Source: a virus
DNA length: 24,298 bases
IMG/VR virus record: IMGVR_UViG_3300037585_000165
Location: 1 to 24,298 of that record
Direction: 5' to 3' (one strand)
Shown here one piece after another: positions 1,344-24,298 of this stretch (positions are counted from its first letter, which is position 1; every line of letters starts with the position of its first letter). The notes beneath the pieces were generated by a model. It had not been told where the DNA came from, did no database searches, and saw only the letters and a program-made list of their open reading frames with translations. A program made the position numbers and the translations under genes.

Positions 1344-1916
1344 TTAATATCCTGAACCTGTTCCTGTACCTGTTTTCATAGGAATAGTACAAGCTTGAAA
1401 GTCATTTTGCACTAAGACTCCCATATTAAATACCCACCCACAACAAAGATTGTCAAACCTTTCTTGAAATGGCTCTATTGAAAATTGGTCATCTGTAAAG
1501 TAGAGGGGTGCATTAATATCATCTACATCTATTAATGATTGTTGTGCTGAATGTCTAAGCATTCCAATAAAGTCAGTACAGATTTGTAAAGTTTCATTAA
1601 ATACATCTTGTTCATTACTTAAAGTCTTATACAGTTTTGTAAATGTATTTTTTGGTGACATTATTTTATCTCTATTTGTTGTCCAATCAGCCTTTTCAGT
1701 TACCATATCCATAATGAATATCTGAAAGTTGTACGTCAAAGTAGAATCACCTGTAGTTACTGAAGTTGGGTTGAGATGTAGTAAAGGAAACTTGGTATTT
1801 TTTTCCAAGTCTATATCCCAAATATCACCTACTGAAGTTGTAGAGATTTGCTCGTGTTTTTCACAAATCCTTAACAGAGTATTGACTACATTATTATAAG
1901 TTTTATTGCTTACCAT
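1344..1916 (-). CDS. Tail terminator/completion-like protein
   Basis: A 190-residue protein placed directly after the tail assembly chaperone, where siphoviruses often carry small tail-completion proteins. The middle part (residues about 50-110) has the alternating pattern of an alpha/beta fold, with a phrase LTYNFQIFIMDMV. The end has WVFNMGVLVQNDFQAC followed by a Gly/Thr-rich tail. I recall similar C-terminal phrases in other Bacteroidota phage proteins of this position. The start ATG at 1916-1914 lies inside the final codons of the chaperone -1 frame, which stops at 1905-1903, so translation could be coupled to the frameshifted product. Function is inferred mainly from position. Confidence 0.55.
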   Translation of the reverse strand: MVSNKTYNNVVNTLLRICEKHEQISTTSVGDIWDIDLEKNTKFPLLHLNPTSVTTGDSTLTYNFQIFIMDMVTEKADWTTNRDKIMSPKNTFTKLYKTLSNEQDVFNETLQICTDFIGMLRHSAQQSLIDVDDINAPLYFTDDQFSIEPFQERFDNLCCGWVFNMGVLVQNDFQACTIPMKTGTGTGSGY

Positions 1917-2684
1917 TTAATTTTGTTTTTTGACTTTCATTTAAGTCTGTTTCATAACTGAGCCAAGTTAAGCACTCCAAAAGTCCTAAGCTCGTTATAC
2001 TTTCTAATTTACTTATGTCTTCATTACAGAGTCTGTGCATTACTCCAAACCAACCCCATTTCTCACTTATACTTTCGCTGACGATTGAGTCTTCATTTCC
2101 TTCAGCTTCATTGTCAAATATGATTGCGAAGTCTCCGATAATTCGTTCACGAAATTGTAAAAAAAAACCAATGCACTTTGCACTTGCTCTGCTGACATCT
2201 TCTTCATCTTTTCGGCTCGGATAGTTAAATCACCCCCATAGGCTTGAATAGAATAGACTTCATTTTCTTTTTCTAAAATTGGTCTATACAGAACTGCCAT
2301 CACTTCAGGCAGGTGTTCTTCTATTCCTATTTTTATAAAAGTTTCCAAATCTGCATACTCACCTAATGTAATCTCATCTAAATTTGGGTGAAAACCATAC
2401 TCAACCCCATCTATTTCAATTATCCTTTTTAAAGAACTATCTTGTCTTGCCTGTAACTCTGCTACTTTTTCCATAATAACAGCTACATCTTTTAAGCTAA
2501 GCTGATTGATTAATTGCTTAGGTATATCTGACATAGCAGCTATTGTTTCTTCTGCTTCCTTCGTCTTACTTCCTGACTGAAACTCAATTAATTTTAACCA
2601 TCTTTCAAGCGTTACATCTGACCAACTATTTATGAGCTTGAACTCCTTTGTCTTGCCTTCCTTCTTGATTTTGACTTTCATCAT
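1903..2684 (-). CDS. Tail assembly chaperone, -1 frameshift fusion product (gpG-T-like)
   Basis: If ribosomes slip back one base on the T run at 2160-2166, the first 175 residues of the chaperone continue into an open -1 frame of 85 codons ending at 1905-1903, giving about 260 residues. The -1 extension contains EKWGWFGVMHRL and later a Leu/Ser-rich helical part ending in LNGKQ. The KWGW phrase followed by helices resembles second chaperone ORFs of Bacteroidota phages as I remember them. The only ATG in the extension (2040-2038) lies after the KWGWFGV segment, so independent initiation would lose that part. In lambda and many siphoviruses a -1 slip makes the G-T fusion that loads onto the tape measure protein. 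The slippery run and open frame are seen directly; the mechanism is inferred from that precedent. Confidence 0.7.
2067..2684 (-). CDS. Tail assembly chaperone, zero-frame product (gpG-like)
   Basis: A 205-residue, Lys/Glu-rich helical protein that starts with two adjacent ATG codons (2684-2679). It contains a W-x-x-V-T-L-E-R-W segment near residues 21-29, a central EITLGEYADLETF segment, a VLYRPI phrase and a C-terminal helical part. This is the composition and size expected of phage tail assembly chaperones, which hold the tape measure protein during tail assembly. It sits downstream of terminase large and upstream of tail-completion genes. The last 30 or so codons overlap the -1 frame, as in known chaperone pairs. 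A repeated AT-rich box lies directly before the start codon (2686-2704). Confidence 0.65.
   Translation of the reverse strand: MMKVKIKKEGKTKEFKLINSWSDVTLERWLKLIEFQSGSKTKEAEETIAAMSDIPKQLINQLSLKDVAVIMEKVAELQARQDSSLKRIIEIDGVEYGFHPNLDEITLGEYADLETFIKIGIEEHLPEVMAVLYRPILEKENEVYSIQAYGGDLTIRAEKMKKMSAEQVQSALVFFYNFVNELSETSQSYLTMKLKEMKTQSSAKV
2160..2166 (-). other. Programmed -1 frameshift slippery heptamer T TTT TTT
   Basis: On the minus strand the reading frame is GTT TTT TTT TAC, giving nine consecutive T (2167-2159). The heptamer formed by the last T of GTT and the next two TTT codons is a canonical X-XXY-YYZ -1 slip site in the correct frame. Slipping there moves translation into the only frame that stays open to 1903. 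I did not identify a definite downstream pseudoknot by eye. Confidence 0.7.
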
Positions 2685-2791: not shown

Positions 2792-4102
2792 TTACTGTAC
2801 AAAATACTTTCCAAAGTTATTATCTATTTCATAAAACATTCTCATAGCTAAAGCATCTGAATAGTCAGGAGATCTACCTATTATGTCTTTGACTATTTCT
2901 TTAGGAACTATTTGTAGCTTAGTGTCTTTGTCTGCGTCTTTCATTCTTACTTGCTCACACTCTTCAATGATATGATTTTTTACATTTATATCAGGGCAAG
3001 TTATTCCTATCTGAGCTTTGTTAATTAATTCAGCTAACTTGTAATAGCACTGAGTCTTTAGGTTCTGATAATTCTCTTTTTTTAATGGTCTTGCATTGTT
3101 AGTAAATCCTTGACACCTGAGAAAGTCTTTAGCTCCACCCCCAACCCCATCTTCGTCTATAATGATATGGCGTAATGGTACACCGTTAGTCTGTTGTAAT
3201 TGCCTTACTTCGTCTACAACGTCATTTACAGCCGATTTAAGCAACGTTCTTATCTTTTTAATATGTAACCCCTCCCAATACATTATAACTGTTCTATCAC
3301 TTCCAAAACGTGCTACATCACAACTGATAAACTTTTGACCTTCTATTCCTTTTTGAGTAAACATATTTATTATAGCATCATATTCAATTAAATTATCTTT
3401 ACTTGCATCATATTCCCAATTCCCAAATAGGAGTCTTTGTTTACTGAGTTCATCTAATGTTTCTAACTGAGTCTTGTAATACTTAGAAATGTATTCATTA
3501 TCATCTACAAGGCTTTGAATAAACTTTCTATATGGTTTTTGTTTACCTTCTTTTGATGGTCTGTAGTATTGAGTATACACCCAATTCTTAGCAGGATTAC
3601 AGGTCATTAACATCTTTGGAATTAATCCATAGTCATCTAACTTGTATCTCATTCTTGAAGCTACAATATTTTTGGCTTTCTCTGTTATCTGATTTGCTTC
3701 ATCTATAAAAGCTCCTGTTATTTCTAATGAACCTAAGTTGTCAAAGTTCCTATCACTTGGGTACAAGAATAAATCCTTTAGCATTATCTCTGACTTATTA
3801 TAGAACTTAATGATGTTAGATCCTCCATTAAAATTGTAATGTTTATTAGCTTTCAAACCCCACGCGTCACATACTTCTAAAAAAGTATTCAGAGTTGTCT
3901 TTTTCAAACTATCTAATTTTGACCTGCCCATTAAGTACCTAGTCTTTGGATATTTTAAACACATAAGAATCAACCAACTACAGCCCACCCAAGATTTACC
4001 ACCACCTGCTGCTCCACCAAATAATACTTCAGTAGTGGTTTTGTCAAATAGATATTCTATTGCTTCTGCTTGAGTGCTTGTAAATTCTGTATCAATATTC
4101 AA
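2792..4102 (-). CDS. terL: Terminase large subunit (TerL)
   Basis: A 436-residue packaging motor ATPase and nuclease that cuts concatemeric phage DNA and pumps it into the prohead through the portal. Visible motifs are the Walker A loop GGAAGGGKS (29-37), Walker B with the catalytic acid GAFIDEA (130-136), a coupling motif TCNP (167-170), and nuclease-domain acidic residues D262 in CDVARFGSD, D316/D318 in IIIDEDG, and D413/D416 in SPDYSDA. These match the order in TerL proteins, and the length is normal. It overlaps the small subunit by 11 bases, so the two are coupled. It lies about 12 kb from the portal gene, which is unusual. Confidence 0.95.
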   Translation of the reverse strand: MNIDTEFTSTQAEAIEYLFDKTTTEVLFGGAAGGGKSWVGCSWLILMCLKYPKTRYLMGRSKLDSLKKTTLNTFLEVCDAWGLKANKHYNFNGGSNIIKFYNKSEIMLKDLFLYPSDRNFDNLGSLEITGAFIDEANQITEKAKNIVASRMRYKLDDYGLIPKMLMTCNPAKNWVYTQYYRPSKEGKQKPYRKFIQSLVDDNEYISKYYKTQLETLDELSKQRLLFGNWEYDASKDNLIEYDAIINMFTQKGIEGQKFISCDVARFGSDRTVIMYWEGLHIKKIRTLLKSAVNDVVDEVRQLQQTNGVPLRHIIIDEDGVGGGAKDFLRCQGFTNNARPLKKENYQNLKTQCYYKLAELINKAQIGITCPDINVKNHIIEECEQVRMKDADKDTKLQIVPKEIVKDIIGRSPDYSDALAMRMFYEIDNNFGKYFVQ

Positions 4103-4445
4103 CTCCCTTGATATTTACATTAATCTTAATTGGCTCATCACCTGAACTGAGGTCAAGTTCTGATCTTTCTATATACCCTCGTCTTTTTCCTTTAGTCTTT
4201 AAAAAGAATATTGTAGCTGATGTATTTCCATCTCCAATCTGTTTATGTAACTGACTTTCACCAAAGTCTAGTGCTATATTCTCTATGTCTTTTACTGCCT
4301 TAGCAAAATCCTCGTCCTCTTTTAGCCATTTATAATATGTTGAACGTGGAACATCTGAAGCTTTACAAGCTACTGTAACCACCCCCAAACTATTCTCTAA
4401 TGCTTTTAAAATACTTTCCTTTTTTATATGTCTACTTTTGTCCAT
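4092..4445 (-). CDS. terS: Terminase small subunit (DNA-recognition subunit)
   Basis: A 117-residue protein immediately upstream of and overlapping TerL. Residues about 10-45 form a helix-turn-helix of the homeodomain type: a helix ending in SLGVV, then CKASDVPRSTYYKWLKED. A helical oligomerisation-like part follows, with the phrase GDGNTSATIFFLKTKGKRRGY common in small terminases of this type. It recognises the packaging site and recruits the large subunit. Its start lies inside the last codons of the TAGT-like glycosyltransferase gene, overlapping by 14 bases, so packaging genes and the candidate DNA-modification genes look like one coupled operon. Confidence 0.85.
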   Translation of the reverse strand: MDKSRHIKKESILKALENSLGVVTVACKASDVPRSTYYKWLKEDEDFAKAVKDIENIALDFGESQLHKQIGDGNTSATIFFLKTKGKRRGYIERSELDLSSGDEPIKINVNIKGVEY

Positions 4446-5307
4446 TATTATATTTTAGTTTCATACCATAATTATTAACTTTGTTTTTTACCTTATATGA
4501 TTTTTTCTTTATTAACTTAGTTTTTTTAAATGGCGTATAATCAACGTGATGATGTATTCTACCAAATCTAAATGTAAGTCGTGATACGTCAGGGTGTACA
4601 TCTACTTGCATTTGACTCTTTGGCAAAGTTCCTTCTTTATCATAAAACTCTGCTGAGTTTCCACCTCTTAATACTTGTGTAGTAGTTTTTAGTTGCATAA
4701 AAGCATTAAATTGAATTGTACAATATCCTGCTTTTAACATATCTAAACTCAATATAGTGTCTTCATTATAGCGTCCCCTCCATTTAAAAGGTACATCATT
4801 CTTAATTAAATTGCAGCTATATATTCTAGTATTCTTAACAAATGGTGGTACAGCTTGTTTACGTGGCACGAACATATAATAGTTTGGTCCTGCCATTGCT
4901 ACATTCTCATACCTTTCTACAAAATCTTCCATAGCTTTAAATCCTGCACCATTTCCCAAAGGTATTTGTAGATTGTTATTCATTCTCAAAAACCTATCTA
5001 TGTTGTCATCCATTACCCAATGATATTCAAATCCATTTTCCTTAGAATGATCCCAAACAAAGTTTCTTGCTGCACCCGGTCCTGTGCTTTTAGATCTTCC
5101 AAGTTTATCTAAAACTTCATATTCATCAAAATATTTTTCAGGCAATATTAATATCTTTTTTTTATCAATTACAGCTGAATAATCTTTGTACTCACTTTTT
5201 TCTATTACAATATTATAAGGCACATTCATCTTTTCTAATGCTTTACTTGTCAGCCTACTATCTGCCCTGCCTTTTGAAACTATATATAATGGATATTTAG
5301 GATTCAT
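4432..5307 (-). CDS. TET-associated glycosyltransferase (TAGT/GREB1-like) family protein
   Basis: A 291-residue protein I recognise as the TAGT or GREB1-related glycosyltransferase family. It begins PLYIVSKGRADSR (6-18), has GPGAARNFVWDH (76-87), then a DXD-like metal/sugar-nucleotide site in HWVMDDN (96-102), AGPNYYMFVPRK (139-150), RGRYNEDT (177-184) and a late FRFGRIHHHVDY segment. The family was predicted by comparative genomics to attach sugars to oxidised (hydroxymethylated) pyrimidines in phage DNA, often near TET/JBP dioxygenases. No such dioxygenase is visible here. It overlaps the upstream glycosyltransferase and the downstream terminase small subunit, forming a tight cassette. Family call is confident; substrate is inference. 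Confidence 0.85.
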   Translation of the reverse strand: MNPKYPLYIVSKGRADSRLTSKALEKMNVPYNIVIEKSEYKDYSAVIDKKKILILPEKYFDEYEVLDKLGRSKSTGPGAARNFVWDHSKENGFEYHWVMDDNIDRFLRMNNNLQIPLGNGAGFKAMEDFVERYENVAMAGPNYYMFVPRKQAVPPFVKNTRIYSCNLIKNDVPFKWRGRYNEDTILSLDMLKAGYCTIQFNAFMQLKTTTQVLRGGNSAEFYDKEGTLPKSQMQVDVHPDVSRLTFRFGRIHHHVDYTPFKKTKLIKKKSYKVKNKVNNYGMKLKYNNGQK

Positions 5308-11504: not shown

Positions 11505-11906
11505 TTAATATTTTTTTTTAAAATCTTCTGCTTCATCTTCACCAAAAACTCCTAGTTCGTAAAATCCTGTTAGCTTCAGAACTGCTCTTGACATTGCTCT
11601 TTTCTCTGCCATTTCCATAACATACCAAGTGTTAGTGTTTCCATCTTGATATCCTTTTCCTTTTAAAGCTGAACCAAAAGTTTGGATTGTAACTTCATTA
11701 GATCCTCTTAACATATTTGCATATGCCTTTACAACGCAAAAGTCTTTTTCGCATTTTATGACTTCATAGTCAATACTTATTCCTTCTATGGCTTGGATTT
11801 TATCAATACCACTTCTTGTGATAATGATATAATGTTGATGTTTAAAGACATCATCTTTGGTAAGGTTGTATCTTTCATACTTTTCCTTTAATACTTCTGT
11901 TTTCAT
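11505..11906 (-). CDS. Conserved phage protein, possible single-strand annealing/recombination factor
   Basis: A 133-residue protein with phrases YIIITRSGIDKIQAIEG, VVKAYANM and NTWYVMEMAEKRAMSRAV, ending in the acidic GVFGEDEAED. The segment in which a tryptophan/tyrosine strand precedes an AEKRAxSRAVLK helix resembles the core of Sak/Erf-type annealing proteins, but it is shorter than most. It lies directly before the SSB gene, as annealing proteins commonly do. The family resemblance is by eye and therefore tentative. Confidence 0.45.
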   Translation of the reverse strand: MKTEVLKEKYERYNLTKDDVFKHQHYIIITRSGIDKIQAIEGISIDYEVIKCEKDFCVVKAYANMLRGSNEVTIQTFGSALKGKGYQDGNTNTWYVMEMAEKRAMSRAVLKLTGFYELGVFGEDEAEDFKKKY

Positions 11907-15937: not shown

Positions 15938-17821
15938 TTAATTGTAATATCCGTGGTTATCCATTCGTTGAGGTGGTATTGCTACCAACTTATCATTTCT
16001 TTCTGCTGTAAATCCTTCAGATACAGCTTTCGTGTAGCCTATGAGTTCAGCATCTTTAATAGGTTGCTTTGCATTTCTTAGTGAAGTCTTGTAAATCTTA
16101 CGCAAGAAAAAATGCCGACATTGTGGTCCTCCTTTGTACAAAAAGATATTATAAGTTCCTTTCTCTCCATCTTTGTATGCGTATTCAGGGTGTCCAAATC
16201 CTTTATTTACTACTTGACTATTCGCATTCACCAAGTCTTCTTTACGATATACTTTTTCTGCTGCTACCATTAATTCACAAAACTCTCTGCTTGTTCCTGA
16301 TTTATTTTTTAAGAACTCATCTGTTTCATAAACATACCTTACTTTATAATAATCGTTATAAGATTTATTGACCCCATCTTGACTACTTCTTGCGTTTGGT
16401 CTTGCGGTTACAGTTTCAGCTAATTCAATTCTTTTATTAGCCTCTTTGTTTAGCTCCTTTTCAAAGTTAAAATCATTATGTTCACCATCTACAATTTCTT
16501 CATCTACCAATTCCCAATCATCAGACATATCTTCACCTACTTCGTTAATCCACTTTTGAAGTTCTGTTTTATTGCAACATACTTTTTTAAGTTTCACATC
16601 TTGCTCTACAGTATCTTCATTGTCTAAAGGTTCAAGCCCAAGTTCTTCACGTATTTCGTCTGTAGTCATCACTTCTCTGATAGTCTTAGAATCAAATTGA
16701 ACTGTAATAGGTTTAAGCTGTACAAAATTCACAGGTAAATCCATATTATTTACTTGAAAGATTTTTCTAAGGCTTTTAACTAACTGATCTTGGAATGGCT
16801 TGATAACAGTATTTAAGTAAAAATTTGCTGCATTTATGATTTCATCTGTATTTGAACTAAAACCATTAGACGAGTCTATGCCCATAAGCGTCTTAGAGGT
16901 TACTCTATGCCCACTTAAGATGTTTGAGGTAAGTAACTCTTGTAGTGCCAAATATTGTTTATCTAAGTCGCTAGAATTGATTGGTGTAATTTCAGGAGTT
17001 CTTGTCTTATCGTCTGAAAAGGTAAGTACAAACTTGCCACTATTTTTTTCTGAGCAGAATTTTTCTGTCAAACTTTGTTCTATTTGAAATCGTTCTTCTT
17101 GTGTAGGTACGCCATTTGCAAAGCTAATCATAAAGCTCCCTGCAAATCCATTTGAGATATTATTTAAATGAAACTCAGATACACGACCATCAATAAGTGC
17201 CCAATTATTGCAGCTAACGTAGTCAGGAGTATAATAGCTATTCATATTCGGACTGTAAAGTCCTGAATACATAAGTTGATTAGCTGAAGTCCTGTCGTGA
17301 GTATTAAAGCAAGGAACGTAATAAGGTTTGTTCTGTCTAGTGTTTGACCAATCTGCTGAGATGTAGTAGCCTGTAGTTTTTCCAAATTCGTCAGGTCTTG
17401 CGCATCTTACTTTAGAAGTATCAACGTGATAGATTTCAGCAATTTGTGTTCTATCCTTTGACCATACTATGTTAAGTGCGAATGCTCCCTGTAGCTTAAA
17501 GTCAAAGGCTAGTTTCTTTATAACTTCGTGTAGGCTTTCATTACTGTTAGCTCTATTCATAAAGTTTTTTAGCTTAATACTAGCATCTGTTACTTCTTCA
17601 TCTTCAATTATAAGGTCTTCACCTGCAATCATTTCGGCTGTAGAATTAATAATGGCAGCAGATATACTACTTGAATAGTAAAGATCTATCAAAAACTGCG
17701 GATATAAGTTTTTCCATTCACCATTAGCATCTCCGTATTCAATCCAATCTTTTCCACGAACCTCTGCAATAACAGGAGCTGTTGATGTTTCTAAATTAAT
17801 ATTAATGATATTGTCTTTCAT
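15938..17821 (-). CDS. Portal protein with Cys/His-rich C-terminal extension
   Basis: A 627-residue protein. Residues 1 to about 420 have the layout of siphovirus portals: a helical N-terminus (LYPQFLIDLYYSSSISAAII), a wing with ADWSNTRQNKPYYVPCF, a stem region (EERFQIEQSLTEKF) and a conserved helical QDQLVKSLRKIF segment followed by TTDEIREELGLEPL. Portals form the 12-mer DNA gate at the head vertex. A C-terminal part has GTSREFC (509-515) and YKGGPQCRHFF, with C568 and H570, before a final KLVAIPPQRMD tail. This layout recalls the Cys-and-CxH signature of MuF/SPP1 gp7-type head morphogenesis domains and may be a fusion. The portal identity is confident; the extension is inference. Confidence 0.85.
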   Translation of the reverse strand: MKDNIININLETSTAPVIAEVRGKDWIEYGDANGEWKNLYPQFLIDLYYSSSISAAIINSTAEMIAGEDLIIEDEEVTDASIKLKNFMNRANSNESLHEVIKKLAFDFKLQGAFALNIVWSKDRTQIAEIYHVDTSKVRCARPDEFGKTTGYYISADWSNTRQNKPYYVPCFNTHDRTSANQLMYSGLYSPNMNSYYTPDYVSCNNWALIDGRVSEFHLNNISNGFAGSFMISFANGVPTQEERFQIEQSLTEKFCSEKNSGKFVLTFSDDKTRTPEITPINSSDLDKQYLALQELLTSNILSGHRVTSKTLMGIDSSNGFSSNTDEIINAANFYLNTVIKPFQDQLVKSLRKIFQVNNMDLPVNFVQLKPITVQFDSKTIREVMTTDEIREELGLEPLDNEDTVEQDVKLKKVCCNKTELQKWINEVGEDMSDDWELVDEEIVDGEHNDFNFEKELNKEANKRIELAETVTARPNARSSQDGVNKSYNDYYKVRYVYETDEFLKNKSGTSREFCELMVAAEKVYRKEDLVNANSQVVNKGFGHPEYAYKDGEKGTYNIFLYKGGPQCRHFFLRKIYKTSLRNAKQPIKDAELIGYTKAVSEGFTAERNDKLVAIPPQRMDNHGYYN

Positions 17822-17831
17822 ATTTTATTTT

Positions 17832-18548
17832 TTATAAACTTGCGAGTCTAGCATTTACATTAGCTGTTAAGGTAGCACTTGTTGAGCTGAATATTTGTAC
17901 TTCACTTATTGACCCATCGTACGGATTGAGGTCGGTTTTTCTAACACCAAGAGTATCTATGTCTGCTGTTCCTGAAATTGTAGTTGTATCACCTTGTTCC
18001 ACCCCATTCCACCAAAGATTTAATACATTACTTGAATCTCTTGTTATGACTAAATAGCTATCACTAAACCAAGTGCCACTATCTAACTCTAAGTCGCCTA
18101 ATGTATTATCAATCTTGACTCTTAATATACTATTGGAAAATAGTTTAACAAATTCACCTGCAGTTGTATTATCACCTATGATAATTCCACCTGCTGCTGC
18201 AACGTGTAGCCTCATTCCAATAGTAAATTCACCTGTCAAAGATATTTGGGTTGATGGCAGACTTAGATGGGCGTCCTCAGAAGGATCAAACGTTAAAGCA
18301 CCTGTTGCCGCATCATATGTAGGCGACTCTGCTGCATTGTGAGGCATCAGGAGATGTCCACCCCCTCCATATTTAAGACCAACCCAACCGTAGACTCTGT
18401 CAGTATCTCCCGGTGTACCATATAAAGAGATGCCTTCTTTATTTTCCCACCAAACTTCGCAACTTGTTTCATCAGTTGGCTCCCAAGGAGCACCCCCACT
18501 TGTCTTTTTTAGTGTATTTAAACTTAACGCTTGTTTAAGTGCTAACAT
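17832..18548 (-). CDS. LamG/concanavalin-like virion protein
   Basis: A 238-residue beta-rich protein. After a short N-terminal segment with SCEVWWENKEGISLYG, residues about 75-235 show the repeated beta-strand pattern of LamG-type concanavalin folds: HLSLPSTQISLTGEFTIGMR read in parts, IIIGDNTTAGEFVKLF, WFSDSYLVITRDSSNVLNLW, and a final SISEVQIFS strand. These domains bind carbohydrate or protein ligands. Between tail proteins and the portal, it may decorate the virion or aid host-surface attachment. Confidence 0.75.
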   Translation of the reverse strand: MLALKQALSLNTLKKTSGGAPWEPTDETSCEVWWENKEGISLYGTPGDTDRVYGWVGLKYGGGGHLLMPHNAAESPTYDAATGALTFDPSEDAHLSLPSTQISLTGEFTIGMRLHVAAAGGIIIGDNTTAGEFVKLFSNSILRVKIDNTLGDLELDSGTWFSDSYLVITRDSSNVLNLWWNGVEQGDTTTISGTADIDTLGVRKTDLNPYDGSISEVQIFSSTSATLTANVNARLASL

Positions 18549-18551
18549 ATT

Positions 18552-18827
18552 CTATGTAGTTGGTCCTTCGTGATAACCTACTCCAATACCACTCGTTAGA
18601 GTTATTGCAGTCACGTTCATAAATAGAGTCGTTCCTGCAGGTAGTGTCGTTTGTAAATTTTCTCCACCTGTTGCATCTGCTACTGTTATAGTGGAAACTA
18701 CACTTTCTACAGGAAAGTAAACACAATACCAATCTTTACTTGTTTGTGCTCCTGTAGTAAAGATATCAGTATCTCCATTTTTTCCTAATTGCTCTGTTAA
18801 GAGCTGTTGTACATTTTCTATTGCCAT
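18552..18827 (-). CDS. Small virion-like protein, 91 residues
   Basis: A compact beta-rich protein with a helical N-terminus (MAIENVQQLLTEQLGKNG) followed by WYCVYFPVESVVSTITVAD and a Thr/Gly-rich middle and end. Its composition is close to small decoration or neck proteins. It lies between the 159-residue tail-region gene and the LamG gene, three bases before the latter. No specific family is recognised. Confidence 0.55.
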   Translation of the reverse strand: MAIENVQQLLTEQLGKNGDTDIFTTGAQTSKDWYCVYFPVESVVSTITVADATGGENLQTTLPAGTTLFMNVTAITLTSGIGVGYHEGPTT

Positions 18828-18839
18828 TTTTTAATTTTT

Positions 18840-19319
18840 TTATTGTCCATAATATATATAATTCGTTGAATCAGGAGCTACACGTTGTGTGTATTGAACC
18901 TGAGCCTTTCCTGTATAATCTGTCATATTTAAAATTCCTTTAGTTACTAGCCCTTGAACTACACCATGAGAGTCTTCAACAGGCAATACGTCTTTTTCTG
19001 TAGCAGGTGCTGTATCTTCAGATAGTGTTATTTCTGCTAACCAAGACACTTCATATACTTCATATTTATAGTGTCCTGAAGGTATTAACTTCGTTTGACC
19101 TGCAAACATATCAGGCTCATCACTATATAAAAAGCTGAAAGTTGTATATCGATTTTGTATTGTTTCTTCAGCCGCATAAGCATATTGAACAGAACCATCC
19201 ATATCATTTATGAACTTCCATAAGTGCCAAATATGGTTTGAAGTAACAGAAGTATTTATACGATTATCTTCTGTACATAGAAATACGTGAAAAGTAGACT
19301 CTGTGATTGCTTGTATCAT
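18840..19319 (-). CDS. Tail-region structural protein, 159 residues
   Basis: A beta-rich protein with the segments RYTTFSFLYSDEP and IPSGHYKYEVYEVSWLAEI, a pattern I associate with uncharacterised structural proteins of flavobacterial siphophages. It follows the two major tail proteins after a strong intrinsic terminator. It starts four bases after a copy of the repeated TCTATTATAT box (19324-19333), which suggests its own control signal. Precise role is unknown. Confidence 0.6.
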   Translation of the reverse strand: MIQAITESTFHVFLCTEDNRINTSVTSNHIWHLWKFINDMDGSVQYAYAAEETIQNRYTTFSFLYSDEPDMFAGQTKLIPSGHYKYEVYEVSWLAEITLSEDTAPATEKDVLPVEDSHGVVQGLVTKGILNMTDYTGKAQVQYTQRVAPDSTNYIYYGQ

Positions 19320-19323
19320 TATT

Positions 19324-19342
19324 ATATAATAGAAAAAGTTTG
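19324..19342 (-). promoter_or_regulatory. Repeated AT-rich late-gene box (copy 2)
   Basis: On the plus strand the 19-mer atataatagaaaaagtttg is identical to the one at 2686-2704. On the minus strand it ends in TCTATTATAT, four bases before the ATG. It directly follows an intrinsic terminator (19359-19384), so any transcription of the next gene independent of read-through must start within this short gap. Confidence 0.5.
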
Positions 19343-19358
19343 ATTCTGTTTGGCTTGT

Positions 19359-19384
19359 AAAAGAAAAAGGGGCAAAAGCCCCTT
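19359..19384 (-). terminator. Intrinsic terminator after the tandem major tail protein genes
   Basis: The minus strand has a seven-base-pair stem AAGGGGC/GCCCCTT around a TTTT loop, followed by TTTTTCTTTT. It lies about 30 bases after the stop of the second tail protein gene, where a high-abundance structural transcript would be expected to end. Confidence 0.75.
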
Positions 19385-19414
19385 AATCAGAATATATGAA
19401 AACTACAAATTAGA

Positions 19415-20002
19415 TTATGATGGATCTATTGTAATTACACCACCATCGTCAATGTTATCAAAAGGTACTCCACCTGTAGAGTGGTCTTTTAATATTGGTG
19501 ATGGTGCAGGTTCAAATCCTTCAAAGTTCAAAGTATAACCATTCCTGTCCGAAAAGGCAGCCCCTGATGCTGCTGAACCTGAATTTAATGACATAGCGTT
19601 TTTAACGCCCATTGCCATTATAATATCCTGTCCACTTGAAGTTTTAGTTGCGTTAAGTTGAACGAATATAACTACTTGAGTTTGTCCGAGCAACTTGATT
19701 TCATTTTGGTCTTCTTTTGTAAGACGATTAATAACCATTGAAAGAGTTGGTTGGTAGCTGATAGTTCCATTTTCTGTGCTTCCTGTTACTGTTTCGCTTA
19801 TTGATGTAGATCCTCTCGGAACTGCATATCTGTAAAGTGGTGAAGTAACACCCCCAACTGTCATTTCAATATCTGTTACTTCAGAAGATGAAACTGTTAT
19901 TGAATCAATTTGATCAGCTACTCCAAAATACACGTACTTTATTCCGCCTGATACTCTGTTGCAATCTAATCCTCGTCCTTTTGTTAATGATGTACAAGCC
20001 AT
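19415..20002 (-). CDS. Major tail tube protein, paralog 2
   Basis: A 195-residue protein that is clearly paralogous to its upstream neighbour. Both begin MAC-x-x-LTKGRGLDCNR, share RYxVPRGSTxIxExVTGSTENGTI (residues about 60-82, read in parts), a central INRLTKEDQ-like helix, and SDRNGYTLNF or GDRNGYTLTW near the end. Beta-rich composition, length and position next to the major capsid gene fit the tail tube subunit. Its spacing from the upstream copy is 13 bases, and it ends before a strong terminator. Which copy forms the tube cannot be told from sequence alone. Confidence 0.75.
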   Translation of the reverse strand: MACTSLTKGRGLDCNRVSGGIKYVYFGVADQIDSITVSSSEVTDIEMTVGGVTSPLYRYAVPRGSTSISETVTGSTENGTISYQPTLSMVINRLTKEDQNEIKLLGQTQVVIFVQLNATKTSSGQDIIMAMGVKNAMSLNSGSAASGAAFSDRNGYTLNFEGFEPAPSPILKDHSTGGVPFDNIDDGGVITIDPS

Positions 20003-20015
20003 TGTTATTTATTTT

Positions 20016-20606
20016 TTATGAGGTTATTATTTCAGTAGCAGGATTTATTGTAAATCCTGAGTTGTCAAACGGGGTGCTAGTGTAATCTTCAAGCATTGGA
20101 AACGGAATGCTTTCTAAACCGTCCCAAGTTAAAGTGTATCCATTTCTGTCACCAAATCCTGCTCCTGAATCAATAGTACCTGCATTTAATGACATTCCAT
20201 TTACCATTCCTAAAGCTACAATAACATCGTGCCCATTACTTAGCTCTTCATTTAATTGAGCAAAAATCCTTACTTGAGTAGCACCCATTAATTTCATCTG
20301 CTCTTGCATATCTTTAGTAATTTTATTAAGTACCATTGAAACTGTTGGAGTGTAAAAAATAGTCCCATTTTCAGTTGAGCCTGTTACAGCTTCGTCAATC
20401 GTTGTACTACCACGAGGAACGGTATATCTGTAAATGTCATTTCCACCAAAGTTAATAGTATCAATCATTTGCTCACTTGTGCCTGTTGCACTAGAATAAT
20501 CATATGAAGTTATTTGGTCGTAAACAGAAAAATATAAATATCTCACTCCGCCACTTGACCTGTTACAATCTAAGCCCCTACCTTTTGTTAATGCTGCGCA
20601 TGCCAT
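20016..20606 (-). CDS. Major tail tube protein, paralog 1
   Basis: A 196-residue beta-rich protein, the upstream member of the tandem pair. By eye the two proteins are about half identical, including the opening LTKGRGLDCNR, GSTENGTI and DRNGYTL stretches. Divergence is greatest in residues 30-55 and in the C-terminal 25 residues. It follows the major capsid gene across a short gap containing a GC-rich hairpin. Tail-tube identity is inferred from family-like composition and position in the virion block. Confidence 0.75.
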   Translation of the reverse strand: MACAALTKGRGLDCNRSSGGVRYLYFSVYDQITSYDYSSATGTSEQMIDTINFGGNDIYRYTVPRGSTTIDEAVTGSTENGTIFYTPTVSMVLNKITKDMQEQMKLMGATQVRIFAQLNEELSNGHDVIVALGMVNGMSLNAGTIDSGAGFGDRNGYTLTWDGLESIPFPMLEDYTSTPFDNSGFTINPATEIITS

Positions 20607-20626
20607 ATTTTAATTGTTTTAGAGTT

Positions 20627-20648
20627 AAAGGGGGCTTTCACCCCCTTT
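20627..20648. terminator. GC-rich hairpin between capsid and tail tube genes
   Basis: AAAGGGGG and CCCCCTTT form an eight-base-pair stem around a six-base loop. On the minus strand, the direction of the genes, only TTT then AACTC follows, so termination would be partial. On the plus strand a T-rich tract follows. It may set the ratio of capsid to tail protein or protect the capsid mRNA 3' end. Confidence 0.5.
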
Positions 20649-20660
20649 TATTTATTTTAT

Positions 20661-21581
20661 TTATGATACAAGAACTACGTCAGCTCCAATACCTACTTGG
20701 CAACCTCCTGAGTATCTAGCTACCACTCTCATATTGTCTGATCCATCTAAAGCAGCCATATCCATCAAGCTTATTCTAGTTTGGTCGCTTAACAAGTCAG
20801 TTCCAAAGAATAAGTTAGATTTTTCTGCTGCTACTAAAACGTCATCTGACATTCCTGTACAAACTGCCAACTTGATTCCTTCAAATACTGCATCATAATC
20901 TCCATTCATAGAATAAGCATTTACATATCCTAAAGTTGAGATAGCTGAAATGTATAATCTGTAAGACTTTGGACTCATATAAATGTAAAGATCTTCTTTT
21001 GTATATACATTAGTTGGAATATCTGCTGTACAGTTTTGTAAGTTTGTAATAATGTTACCTGCTGTATACGCTGTTCCTGCTCCACCTACATTAGCTACAT
21101 CATTTACTGTAGCATCTGCAACTAAAATCCCTACTGCTGCTGCAGGCGTTACAAATCCTGTCCATTCTCCTGCGTCACCTACATCGCCATTCCAAATATT
21201 ATTTTCTGTTGAGTCAGCTATAATTTCACCTAAGTAAGAAATTACATAGTCATCAAAAGATGCAGGTGGTGGTGCTCCTGCTCCTGCTCTCATTTGTAAT
21301 GCCTCCCAAGAATCCAATAAATCTGCCTTACATAAGTCAGTATTGATTTGTAGATTTTTAGGTGTTAATACATTTTCTGTTAATGCTAAAGTACCTGCAG
21401 TTGTGAAATTACAAGTTGCATCTACTACCATTCCTGTAGCATTCATTTTCTGAATGTTACTCTTATATTTGATATTTTCTATCATAGTCAAGAACTCCAT
21501 AGAAGTTGCTTGTCTTAATGCCGCAGAGATGTAAAATCCTGCAGCTTTTCCTGCATAATTACTAGTTGTTGTTAATGCCAT
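20661..21581 (-). CDS. Major capsid protein
   Basis: A 306-residue protein directly downstream of the protease and scaffold genes, where HK97-type capsid genes normally lie. It is Ala/Thr/Gly-rich. It has an N-terminal helix (YISAALRQATSMEFLTMI), a long acidic segment near ISYLGEIIADSTENNIWNGD, a P-domain-like region (LYIYMSPKSYRLYISAI), and a final TRISLMDMAALDGSDNMRVV, which together match the order in HK97-like coat proteins. It would form the icosahedral shell after scaffold-assisted assembly and proteolytic maturation. Confidence 0.85.
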   Translation of the reverse strand: MALTTTSNYAGKAAGFYISAALRQATSMEFLTMIENIKYKSNIQKMNATGMVVDATCNFTTAGTLALTENVLTPKNLQINTDLCKADLLDSWEALQMRAGAGAPPPASFDDYVISYLGEIIADSTENNIWNGDVGDAGEWTGFVTPAAAVGILVADATVNDVANVGGAGTAYTAGNIITNLQNCTADIPTNVYTKEDLYIYMSPKSYRLYISAISTLGYVNAYSMNGDYDAVFEGIKLAVCTGMSDDVLVAAEKSNLFFGTDLLSDQTRISLMDMAALDGSDNMRVVARYSGGCQVGIGADVVLVS

Positions 21582-21587
21582 TTTATT

Positions 21588-22274
21588 TTATTTATTTAAG
21601 TTATATATGAATTGTTCTCTTTTTGTTAGTTTTTTATAATCTGCTTTTGACAAACTAACTTTTTCAGAACTAAATTTATTTGTATTTATAGGAGCTTCAG
21701 CAGGTTGTTCTGCAAGTTCCGTTTTAAGTTTTTCGTTTTCAGCTTTTATTGCTTCCACTTCTTCGGCTGAAAATTCTTTTACTTCTGTGGTCTTTATAGT
21801 TTTAGGATTTGTAGATGGCTCTTCAGTTTCTTCTGCCATTTCTTCAACATCACCTTTTTCACCAATTTCTTTCTTAATATCTGATACAGCATCTTCCAAG
21901 TTTTTGATTCTTTTTTCCATACCCTCCCAATCATCAACTGATGCTTCGTCATCATCTTCACCTCTGTCTTCACCGAGTTCTTCTTTTTCTTCAGGTGCTT
22001 CTTCTTTTTCTTCCGTTTCAGACTCAATAACTTCAGCTACAATACCTTCTTCTTCTACACGAAATGATACGCCTGTGTCCGTTTTGTATGTTCCTACAGG
22101 TAGCAAGATTGTAGTGCCATCTTCCGTTAAAACAGATATATCCACTCCTGCTTCTAATTCTTCAGCAGTAGATACGAAAATTGTGCCATCGTCTGACTTC
22201 GCTTGCCAAGCCAATTTCACTTCTTCGTCTTTGCTAAGACCAAGAGCTACTAATATTTGTTCTTTTAAATCCAT
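21588..22274 (-). CDS. Acidic scaffold-like protein
   Basis: A 228-residue protein between protease and capsid genes. Residues about 80-125 form a very acidic, low-complexity Glu/Asp run. Residues about 118-140 and 168-190 look like coiled coils (MEKRIKNLEDAVSDIKKEIG, EVEAIKAENEKLKTEL), and the C-terminus is basic (KREQFIYNLNK). These are hallmarks of phage scaffold proteins, with a basic C-terminal capsid-binding end. The N-terminal 80 residues form a small beta-rich domain of unknown role. A TCTATTATAT box precedes the gene. Confidence 0.75.
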   Translation of the reverse strand: MDLKEQILVALGLSKDEEVKLAWQAKSDDGTIFVSTAEELEAGVDISVLTEDGTTILLPVGTYKTDTGVSFRVEEEGIVAEVIESETEEKEEAPEEKEELGEDRGEDDDEASVDDWEGMEKRIKNLEDAVSDIKKEIGEKGDVEEMAEETEEPSTNPKTIKTTEVKEFSAEEVEAIKAENEKLKTELAEQPAEAPINTNKFSSEKVSLSKADYKKLTKREQFIYNLNK

Positions 22275-22288
22275 AGTGTTCTTTTTTT

Positions 22289-22321
22289 ATATAATAGAAA
22301 ATTTAGTTAATTATTTGATTT
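22289..22321 (-). promoter_or_regulatory. Bipartite AT-rich late-gene box before scaffold gene (copy 3)
   Basis: On the minus strand the 15-mer AAATCAAATAATTAA (22321-22307) is followed after exactly eight bases by TCTATTATAT (22298-22289). The same two parts at the same eight-base spacing occur before the protease gene (23062-23030). The upstream part overlaps the last codons of the protease gene. Confidence 0.5.
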
Positions 22322-23026
22322 TGTAATTATTTCATTTAATGCTTTTAGGATCTCTTCATTAGTTGGTGCTTTTTCAGACATCTTTTCCATCTTATCTGTA
22401 AAGTAACCTTCAATGCTCAATCCTCTCAAAGAGCCATCTTTTATCTTTGCCCATAAGTCATCATTCTCAATTCTCATTTTAACAAACCAAGTTCCATTTG
22501 GTAAATCAAATCCGTACAATTTAGACTTATCCATATCACCTTCTTTTATCCAAGACTCAACAGTTAAAACTCCTGATACTCTATCTTGGTGTTCATAGGT
22601 AGCTTTATGGTGGTTATTATGTTTCAAGTAAAGTTCTGAAGCCTTTCGGACAGTTTCTTTTGAAAAATATACATAATATTCTGAGTCAGTATTTGCATCA
22701 TATCTGAAAATCTGCTTATTTGGGATTAAAGCAGGACTGACTACAATTCTTTTGTCCTCATCTACTTTAGCAAAAGTCAAGTTATTCTTAGACTTATTAA
22801 AGTAAACAAAGTCCTGCTCAATGGCAGGTGCTGAAACTAAACTAATTGCGTCAATAGCAAGTTCTTGTGAATCGTTATCAATTACAAGTTCAACTATTGA
22901 GGTAGTTTTCATTTCTTCATAATGGTGGTCAGGATTTGCTTTTTGACACTCTTCTAAAGTATCGTATTCACATTCTCCTGTTTCACCCCATTTATATTTT
23001 CCTTCTTTGCATTTTGTACAAGGCAT
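22307..23026 (-). CDS. XkdF-like prohead protease
   Basis: A 239-residue protein. The C-terminal 195 residues match the XkdF-like phage serine protease group. They include LAIDAISLVSAPAIEQDFVY (56-75), a segment NHHKATYEHQDRVSGV with a catalytic-candidate His, NGTWFVKMRIEND (179-191) and SLRGLSIEGYF (200-210). Such proteases cut scaffold and capsid proteins during maturation. The first 40 residues form a separate Cys module (CTKCKEG, GECEYDTLEEC) that may bind zinc. Position directly before scaffold and capsid genes is as expected. Confidence 0.8.
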   Translation of the reverse strand: MPCTKCKEGKYKWGETGECEYDTLEECQKANPDHHYEEMKTTSIVELVIDNDSQELAIDAISLVSAPAIEQDFVYFNKSKNNLTFAKVDEDKRIVVSPALIPNKQIFRYDANTDSEYYVYFSKETVRKASELYLKHNNHHKATYEHQDRVSGVLTVESWIKEGDMDKSKLYGFDLPNGTWFVKMRIENDDLWAKIKDGSLRGLSIEGYFTDKMEKMSEKAPTNEEILKALNEIITKSNN

Positions 23027-23029
23027 AGT

Positions 23030-23062
23030 ATATAATAGATTTTGTTATTAATTATTTGATTT
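23030..23062 (-). promoter_or_regulatory. Bipartite AT-rich late-gene box before protease gene (copy 4)
   Basis: On the minus strand AAATCAAATAATTAA (23062-23048), eight bases, then TCTATTATAT (23039-23030), three bases before the ATG. It lies in the short gap after the tape measure stop, so here the repeat is not explained by coding constraint. Confidence 0.5.
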
Positions 23063-23063
23063 G

Positions 23064-24298
23064 TTAGATTGTAGCTCTACGTCTTATGTTAGCTAATTGG
23101 TTTTGGCTGTTAGTCATTTCGTCTGTTACTACAAAGGCTTTGATAGGTTCAGGAGCTGTTCCACCTGTTAAGTCAAATTCACCTGACATCATTTGAGGTG
23201 CAGGAACTTGTTCTGTAGTTGTAGCAGGTGCTGTTATATTCCCTCCACCACCACCTCCACCACCACCACCTGCTGAAGTAATAGCTTGAACATTTTTAAT
23301 ACCTGCAGCAACTGCGGCTGCTGCTGCAACCCCTCCTAAAACAGGTCCGACTACAGGAATCCCTGCCAAAGAAGCATAAGATGCCTGTGCTGATTTATAA
23401 GTATCTATGGTGGCTTGAACAATAGCTGCTGCTTTTCCTGCGGCTGTTTCTTCACCTAAGATTTCAGCTAAAGCTCCTGCTGTACTGTGAGCAATATTCA
23501 TCTTTTCCTTAGCTGTCATATCTGCCCACTTAACTTCTTGGTCTGATAGCTGTTGAAATGTCCTTGTAGCGTCTTTTACTTTCTTTTTGTCATCAGTTGC
23601 ATATTTTTTATCAATAGCATCAAGTTCGGCAGCGTATGCTGCTTTTAAATCTACCAACATAGCAGAGCCTTCTTCTTCACCTGCAATCAGACTTTCCCAT
23701 TTTTCTTGTGCATCTAGTATTTCATTTTCTTTTGCAGTTCTTTGAGATGCATAAAACTCATCTAATGCTTCAGCTACATCAGTTATTTGTTTATTAAGTC
23801 TATCGGCTTCCAAGTCCATTAATTCCTGAAGTGCAGCTTTTTCTGCTTCTATTCCATCAAGTCTTGCTTGTTCCCTAGCTTTTTGTTCTGCTGATATTTT
23901 TCTTTGAATACCATTTAATTGTCTAGCTAACATTTTTTGCTTAGTAAACGATTTTGTTTCTAGCTCTATCATTTTAGCTTTTTCTTCTTGTAATTTTCTT
24001 TCATCTTCGGCAGTACTATTTGACATATTCTTTCTTTCTTGTGCTATTCTAACACGTTCTGCCTGATTATCAATTTCTATTTGTAATAGATTTTTTTCTA
24101 CTTCTACAGCATCTGTCAGGGCTTTTTTCCTTTCTTGTAATGACTTCGTTTCATCTGTAGCTATTAACCTAGCTTCAGCTATTTGCCTCTTCATCTCTGC
24201 CTTTATAGTAAGCTGATCCTTTTCTACATCTCTTAACTTCTGACTTGCTTTTTCTAACTTACCTGCAGCCTCAGTTTCTTTAATCATTTCATCTGTAA
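23064..24298 (-). CDS. Tape measure protein, C-terminal part (5' end outside window)
   Basis: The frame stays open through the right edge (codons before the Met at 24287-24285 remain sense), so only the C-terminal 411 or so residues are seen. A long Glu/Lys/Ala coiled coil covers most of it. A hydrophobic Ala/Gly segment (AASYASLAGIPVVGPVLG-type, then AAAAAVAAGIKNVQAI) follows, then a run of ten Gly, and an end reading PIKAFVVTDEMTNSQ and RRRATI. That C-terminal layout is typical of tape measure proteins of Bacteroidota siphophages. It sets tail length and is ejected with DNA. Confidence 0.8.
   Translation of the reverse strand, partial: TDEMIKETEAAGKLEKASQKLRDVEKDQLTIKAEMKRQIAEARLIATDETKSLQERKKALTDAVEVEKNLLQIEIDNQAERVRIAQERKNMSNSTAEDERKLQEEKAKMIELETKSFTKQKMLARQLNGIQRKISAEQKAREQARLDGIEAEKAALQELMDLEADRLNKQITDVAEALDEFYASQRTAKENEILDAQEKWESLIAGEEEGSAMLVDLKAAYAAELDAIDKKYATDDKKKVKDATRTFQQLSDQEVKWADMTAKEKMNIAHSTAGALAEILGEETAAGKAAAIVQATIDTYKSAQASYASLAGIPVVGPVLGGVAAAAAVAAGIKNVQAITSAGGGGGGGGGGNITAPATTTEQVPAPQMMSGEFDLTGGTAPEPIKAFVVTDEMTNSQNQLANIRRRATI
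23242..23270. repeat. CCA/ACC trinucleotide run encoding poly-Gly
   Basis: A near-perfect CCA repeat on the plus strand encodes the Gly run near the tape measure C-terminus. Such runs can gain or lose units by slippage, changing linker length without shifting frame. Confidence 0.7.

Follow-up and report, generated by a model that had tools for sequence, protein, structure and literature searches.

The gene that directly follows the terminase in the window (the whole stretch of viral DNA analysed, 24,298 nucleotides from IMG/VR record IMGVR_UViG_3300037585_000165) is very probably a recoded gene with two products. Most of its expression would yield a short protein of 205 aa that ends in its own tail. 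A minority would yield a protein of 260 aa that fuses the N-domain, at ...VFF/LQF..., to a C-domain encoded in the -1 frame. That the gene is real, recoded and makes two products follows from the conserved -1 arrangement among relatives, from purifying selection on the -1 frame and from the short-product tail, which is kept open. Its role is most likely that of a tail assembly chaperone in a siphovirus related to flavobacterial phages. The version of this account in which RNA polymerase makes the switch by slipping on a long T run is, in our estimate, an evenly balanced proposition. The elements of the gene and its neighbours are listed below, each read from the sequence unless other evidence is named.

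2067..2684, minus strand: zero-frame open reading frame of the short product (205 aa; the N-domain followed by a tail of its own)
2159..2167, minus strand: T9 run, zero-frame GTT TTT TTT TAC
2160..2166, minus strand: in-frame heptamer T TTT TTT, which would be the slip site for a ribosomal mechanism
1903..2160, minus strand: -1-frame extension, 85 codons and a stop, C-domain (sequence and pN/pS)
2067..2159, minus strand: post-slip zero-frame tail of the short product, 30 codons and a stop, overlapping the extension
2147..2149, minus strand: third-frame TGA directly past the T run
2792..4102, minus strand: terminase large subunit, the gene directly upstream (PF04466, E 3e-15; phrog_2, E 1.2e-34)
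1344..1916, minus strand: next gene, 190 aa, whose ATG overlaps the end of the extension by 14 nt

A sequence-only reading of this DNA had proposed a programmed recoding event at nine T's in the frame GTT TTT TTT TAC, with a T-TTT-TTT slip site, a -1 frame open to 1903 that adds 85 codons with a KWGW motif, and a long product of about 260 residues. These details are borne out. The run lies at 2167-2159 and the heptamer at 2166-2160 on the minus strand, and the -1 frame is open from stop to stop between 2229 and 1903, with its stop codon at 1905-1903. Past the slip, positions 2160-1906 encode 85 residues (LQFRERIIGDF...KWGWFGVMHRL...NGKQ), so that the predicted long product has 175 + 85 = 260 aa. 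The sole ATG of the -1 frame (2040-2038) comes after the KWGW motif (2061-2050), as that reading had noted. The T9 is the sole coding-strand T run of at least nine within the genes of the window. An A9 is present on the coding strand at 11511-11519 (T9 on the plus strand), at the very end of the open reading frame 11505-11906, and may be a second slippage site.

Relatives were collected by an IMG/VR scan with the fused sequence, which gave 222 relatives, 80 of which were kept. Very divergent relatives were added by three further scans with distant queries and by one genome scan. Rows taken from a GenBank record were left out of the alignments. Loci were counted with separate N-domain and C-domain profiles on all three forward frames. 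The C-domain lies in the -1 frame and is joined at the T run in 310 of the 312 loci that carry both domains. The remaining two loci are one contig (L091, identical to L178), where both domains share one open reading frame because the run is a T10. This contig (2555-3298) has T10 where its close relatives have T9, which is either a sequencing error or a natural fixed fusion. The gene is also found in the cultured Nonlabens phages P12024S and P12024L (genes 38/39), with the terminase as neighbour, a T9 and a -1-frame extension with KWSW; it is 24-27% identical to the gene of the window. In these phages the two parts were deposited as separate hypothetical proteins and the recoding is unannotated, in line with the prediction that standard annotation would miss the extension. 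Another clear relative (L163, 6001-6632) is 52-58% identical to the window in each domain and sits on a contig labelled as a MAG of Pseudooceanicola, an alphaproteobacterium; this is probably a mis-binned viral contig. A separate junction type (CGG or AGG, T9, G) occurs in separate branches of the close clade (L007, L015, L070, L184, L185, L192, L194, L195 and others), distributed as if a short segment had been moved by recombination.

Purifying selection acts on the -1 frame, whose pN/pS in 65 distinct close relatives is 0.28 over the whole extension and 0.26 past the overlap, where the other two frames give 0.99 and 1.72. Together with the shared arrangement of the 310 loci, this strongly supports programmed recoding into the -1 frame. 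The sequence-only reading had named two outcomes that would speak against it, a conserved start codon of the second frame and loss of the T run in relatives, and neither was seen: the run is retained, and no conserved -1-frame start codon was found in 74 non-redundant loci. In 38 of these 74 there is no ATG, GTG or TTG ahead of the WGW motif, and in some loci the -1 frame is open for as little as 13 nt ahead of the slip. The zero-frame tail is weakly constrained in sequence (pN/pS 0.82). Within its codons 1-15, 67 clusters contain no zero-frame stop, where synonymous resampling of the -1 frame predicts about 56, and a [YW]x[LF]xxxL pattern is retained. The open tail and the retained pattern suggest that the short product with this ending is required as well. 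The tail also shows reduced entropy, a result of limited weight because shared ancestry is not part of the null model. The tail is always at least 16 codons long in the 67 clusters, often 55-57, and past its first residues the sequence shows little conservation.

It is highly improbable that the second frame instead reflects a homopolymer sequencing error, gene decay or phase variation at the tract, or that it is a separate gene with a start codon of its own. Homopolymers are error-prone, and the contig with T10 and a single fused reading frame is what such an artefact could look like. Against this, the same frame relation recurs across many metagenomes in all but one contig, run length differs in none of 127 close locus pairs, the -1 frame is under strong selection, and about half of the non-redundant loci offer a separate gene no start before WGW. 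Sequencing error, decay and phase variation do not account for the conserved layout, for its presence in P12024S and P12024L or for the constant run length in close pairs.

The length of the T run is itself conserved. Among the 310 recoded loci the run is T9 in 270 and T10 in 38, with a single T12 and a single T8; it is thus at least nine in 309, and its start may fall at codon position 1, 2 or 3. In every recoded locus the heptamer T TTT TTT stands in zero-frame register at the junction, since any nine-T run must contain one; the T8 lineage (L258) also retains it. With u as the number of T's before the in-frame heptamer and d as the number after it, the counts of (u,d) are (1,1) 241, (1,2) 32, (2,0) 15, (0,2) 14, (2,1) 6, (1,4) 1 and (1,0) 1. 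As u falls d rises, so that an upstream loss of T is offset downstream, whatever the codon register. When d was shuffled among cluster states, the P value for this compensation was <5e-5 with clusters at 80% identity, 1e-4 at 60% and 1e-4 at 50%; it was 0.19 at 40%, where there are four clusters only. In the 14 loci with u = 0, where the usual V/I/L codon is replaced by one for N, G or A, the next -1 codon is TTT in 14/14, compared with 33/275 (12%) of the loci with u = 1. Both Phe codons of the slip site are TTT in 67/67 clusters, and TTC makes up 25% of Phe codons elsewhere in the same genes. T runs of at least nine are absent from 287 kb of neighbouring coding sequence against 4.2 expected, and A runs of at least nine occur there 7 times against 26 expected.

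A third-frame stop lies within eight codons past the slip in 0.99 of clusters against 0.76 expected (z 4.9). The excess drops to z 2.6 with 50% clusters, and controls at six positions further downstream gave z from -1.8 to 0.9. Stable RNA structure was not detected in 70-nt windows downstream of the slip in 40 loci (mean z about 0, pseudoknots not included); one window upstream of the slip gave a weak z of -0.57. An upstream SD-like element is not enriched (2/67), and special synonymous-site conservation just upstream of the slip is absent, other windows being equally low.

One added U and a -1 ribosomal slip yield an identical fusion protein; the sequence leans towards the polymerase as the machine, and the product ratio given above is likewise a prediction. 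Host RNA polymerase would slip on the T9 (nine or more T's come close to the 9-10 bp RNA:DNA hybrid) and add one U, after which ordinary translation would continue in the -1 frame, and transcripts with other changes would terminate at the nearby third-frame stop. As the mechanism, slippage on T9-T10 seems to us neither probable nor improbable. The bacterial enzyme has a hybrid of 9-10 bp, and nine A or T are enough for efficient slippage (Atkins et al., 2016, PMC5009743); coding regions avoid long runs, and the length at which this avoidance sets in is nine for many bacteria (Baranov et al., 2005, PMC1088944). In Thermus dnaX, in IS elements and in type III secretion genes of Shigella a homopolymer of about nine A or T is the switch, as here, and Thermus dnaX also has other-frame stops close to the slip site (PMC5009743, PMC1088944). 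Those are cellular or transposon genes in which slippage was shown by experiment, whereas here a probable phage chaperone is concerned and slippage is deduced from conservation. A wider proposal, that a large unrecognised family of tail chaperones, carried by marine phages related to flavobacterial phages, uses polymerase slippage on T9-T10 in hosts whose ribosomes are largely SD-blind, is tentative and falls a shade below even chances. The Nonlabens phage relatives suggest that the host is a flavobacterium, and one report (PMC9976891) states that Bacteroidia ribosomes do not recognise SD sequences. This would remove one of the usual stimulators, yet it does not decide the mechanism.

A serious alternative to polymerase slippage is that the ribosome shifts into the -1 frame at T TTT TTT in the classical programmed manner known from lambda G/GT and P2 E/E+E'; we place it somewhat below even chances. 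Both tRNAs would move back by a single base on U UUU UUU, and the long product would come from a minor fraction of the ribosomes. To our knowledge all known recoded tail chaperones use the ribosome, so that this is the known route for such genes, and no recoded locus, the T8 one included, has the heptamer out of register. The sequence-only reading had taken the site as a canonical slip site for such a frameshift. The register of the heptamer agrees with this. The evidence, however, points to selection on T-run length (at least nine) that goes beyond the heptamer alone, for which transcriptional slippage is an explanation no worse than ribosomal frameshifting. A ribosome needs just T TTT TTT (or T TTT TTC), and it has no need of nine T's, of compensation or of third-frame stops. 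Seven T's would suffice, yet nearly every locus has more, in three registers and with compensation; the second Phe codon is never TTC, and third-frame stops are enriched. Downstream structure or an upstream SD-like stimulator is common for -1 frameshifting and not obligatory, and neither was found here. P2 resembles the present gene in its T-rich slip site, its -1 frame and the lack of a downstream hairpin (PMC3091744, PMC3931495). Its slip site is TTTTTTG, with T7G or T7C in relatives (PMC3091744, PMC3931495), so that the ribosomal route also has a precedent on T6G where no downstream hairpin was found (PMC3091744); runs of the P2 type have six or seven T's, in contrast to nine or more here. 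A cluster of tail chaperones showed 7% frameshifting in tests (PMC3711429). We therefore lean slightly to transcriptional slippage, because a ribosome requires none of the three features that are conserved (nine T's, register compensation and third-frame stops). The lean is modest given the ribosomal precedent in chaperones, the one T8 lineage, the T's partly dictated by hydrophobic residues and the non-independence of related sequences. The flanking T's are partly forced by these residues, which makes a protein-level cause of the compensation possible.

The N-domain matches phrog_32199 (unknown function) in all 31 aligned members. An AlphaFold model of the short product, which contains this domain, reached a pLDDT of 85. 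In BFVD, a collection of predicted viral structures, the model matched annotated tail assembly chaperones at E 5e-3 (probability 0.99, TM 0.44) and 0.055, most of its matches there being unnamed proteins; a fold search against the PDB gave no match. A search of the -1-frame translation in the window found no Pfam or PHROG match for the C-domain, and in relatives only chance-level matches were seen, e.g. to phrog_38404 at E 0.17. Because a second frame conceals it, the C-domain is almost unrepresented in Pfam and PHROGs. A model of the full fused protein (from L091, with its N and C fragments) had a pLDDT of 48 and was too poor to use. Phage_TAC_7 (PF10109) matched the protein of the window at E 0.012 with 16.1 bits, under the cut-off of 25, and was a weak match in 3/31 members. 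Comparison of the family profiles by hhalign with the single sequences of lambda G and lambda T found nothing, and that of the family profile with the single P2 E sequence was also empty.

The gene resembles lambda G/GT in that a short and a long product share one start, the long one arises via the -1 frame and the gene lies in a structural block; in both, the short product is the N-part and the extension is a C-domain. In lambda, G and T are flanked by the major tail gene on one side and the tape measure gene on the other, whereas here the gene follows the terminase, and no sequence relationship to lambda G/GT was detected; the junction here is a long T run. Tail assembly chaperone had been the sequence-only assignment. 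It is favoured by the weak fold matches to annotated chaperones, by the two-product design and by the genome position, and the detected similarities do not extend to lambda G/T or P2 E. The gene probably works like lambda G/GT, by analogy, and is not a demonstrated member of the lambda G/T or P2 E families. On that analogy, the tape measure protein would be coated by the N-domain, with the C-domain bringing in tail-tube subunits.

It is unlikely that the gene, recoded as described, encodes some other two-product morphogenesis factor beside the terminase. This possibility concerns the role and is compatible with either slippage mechanism, so its probability stands apart from theirs. The position directly after the terminase, with six genes and about 6.7 kb separating the gene from the downstream tape measure gene in L164, would suit such a factor, as would the undetected homology to lambda G/T or P2 E and a weak PHROG match to a terminase small subunit (E 0.008). 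The fold matches that carry a function are to chaperones, however, and phrog_166, a 'tail protein', is a weak match in 10/31 members. The -1 shift that links two products within a structural block also argues for the chaperone, being the hallmark of such genes.

A recoded tail chaperone is already a known kind of gene. A search of openly accessible papers turned up no description of the gene family, of its C-domain or of how run length behaves at its slip site, and a tail chaperone made by polymerase slippage would, if true, be the first known to us. A different machine would then serve the familiar principle of assembly, in which the long chaperone makes up a set minor fraction. The annotation is corrected for a gene family that is present in hundreds of marine phage contigs. 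The family is also a natural test of polymerase against ribosome slippage, because the protein and the run are the same and edited transcripts come from one of them only.

The gene order is clearest in L164, where the terminase and the recoded gene are followed by genes of 182, 149, 191, 473, 911 and 286 aa, then by the tape measure gene and an XkdF-type protease. The counterpart of the 190-aa next gene of the window lies at 3156-3704. On other contigs with a tape measure match, that match is several kb downstream of the recoded gene on the same strand. The recoded gene adjoins the terminase and was not found between the major tail protein and tape measure genes. The window has an unusual order at 15938-24287 (minus strand), with a tape measure gene, an XkdF-type protease, a capsid-like gene and, further on, a portal, so that tail genes precede head genes in transcription order. 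A TET-associated glycosyltransferase at 4432-5307 (minus strand; PF20691, E 1e-44; phrog_842) suggests that the phage carries hypermodified, glycosylated DNA bases. Just past the capsid-like gene, 19415-20002 and 20016-20606 (minus strand) encode adjacent paralogous proteins of about 195 aa, both phrog_19091, which are candidates for duplicated tail-tube or virion proteins.
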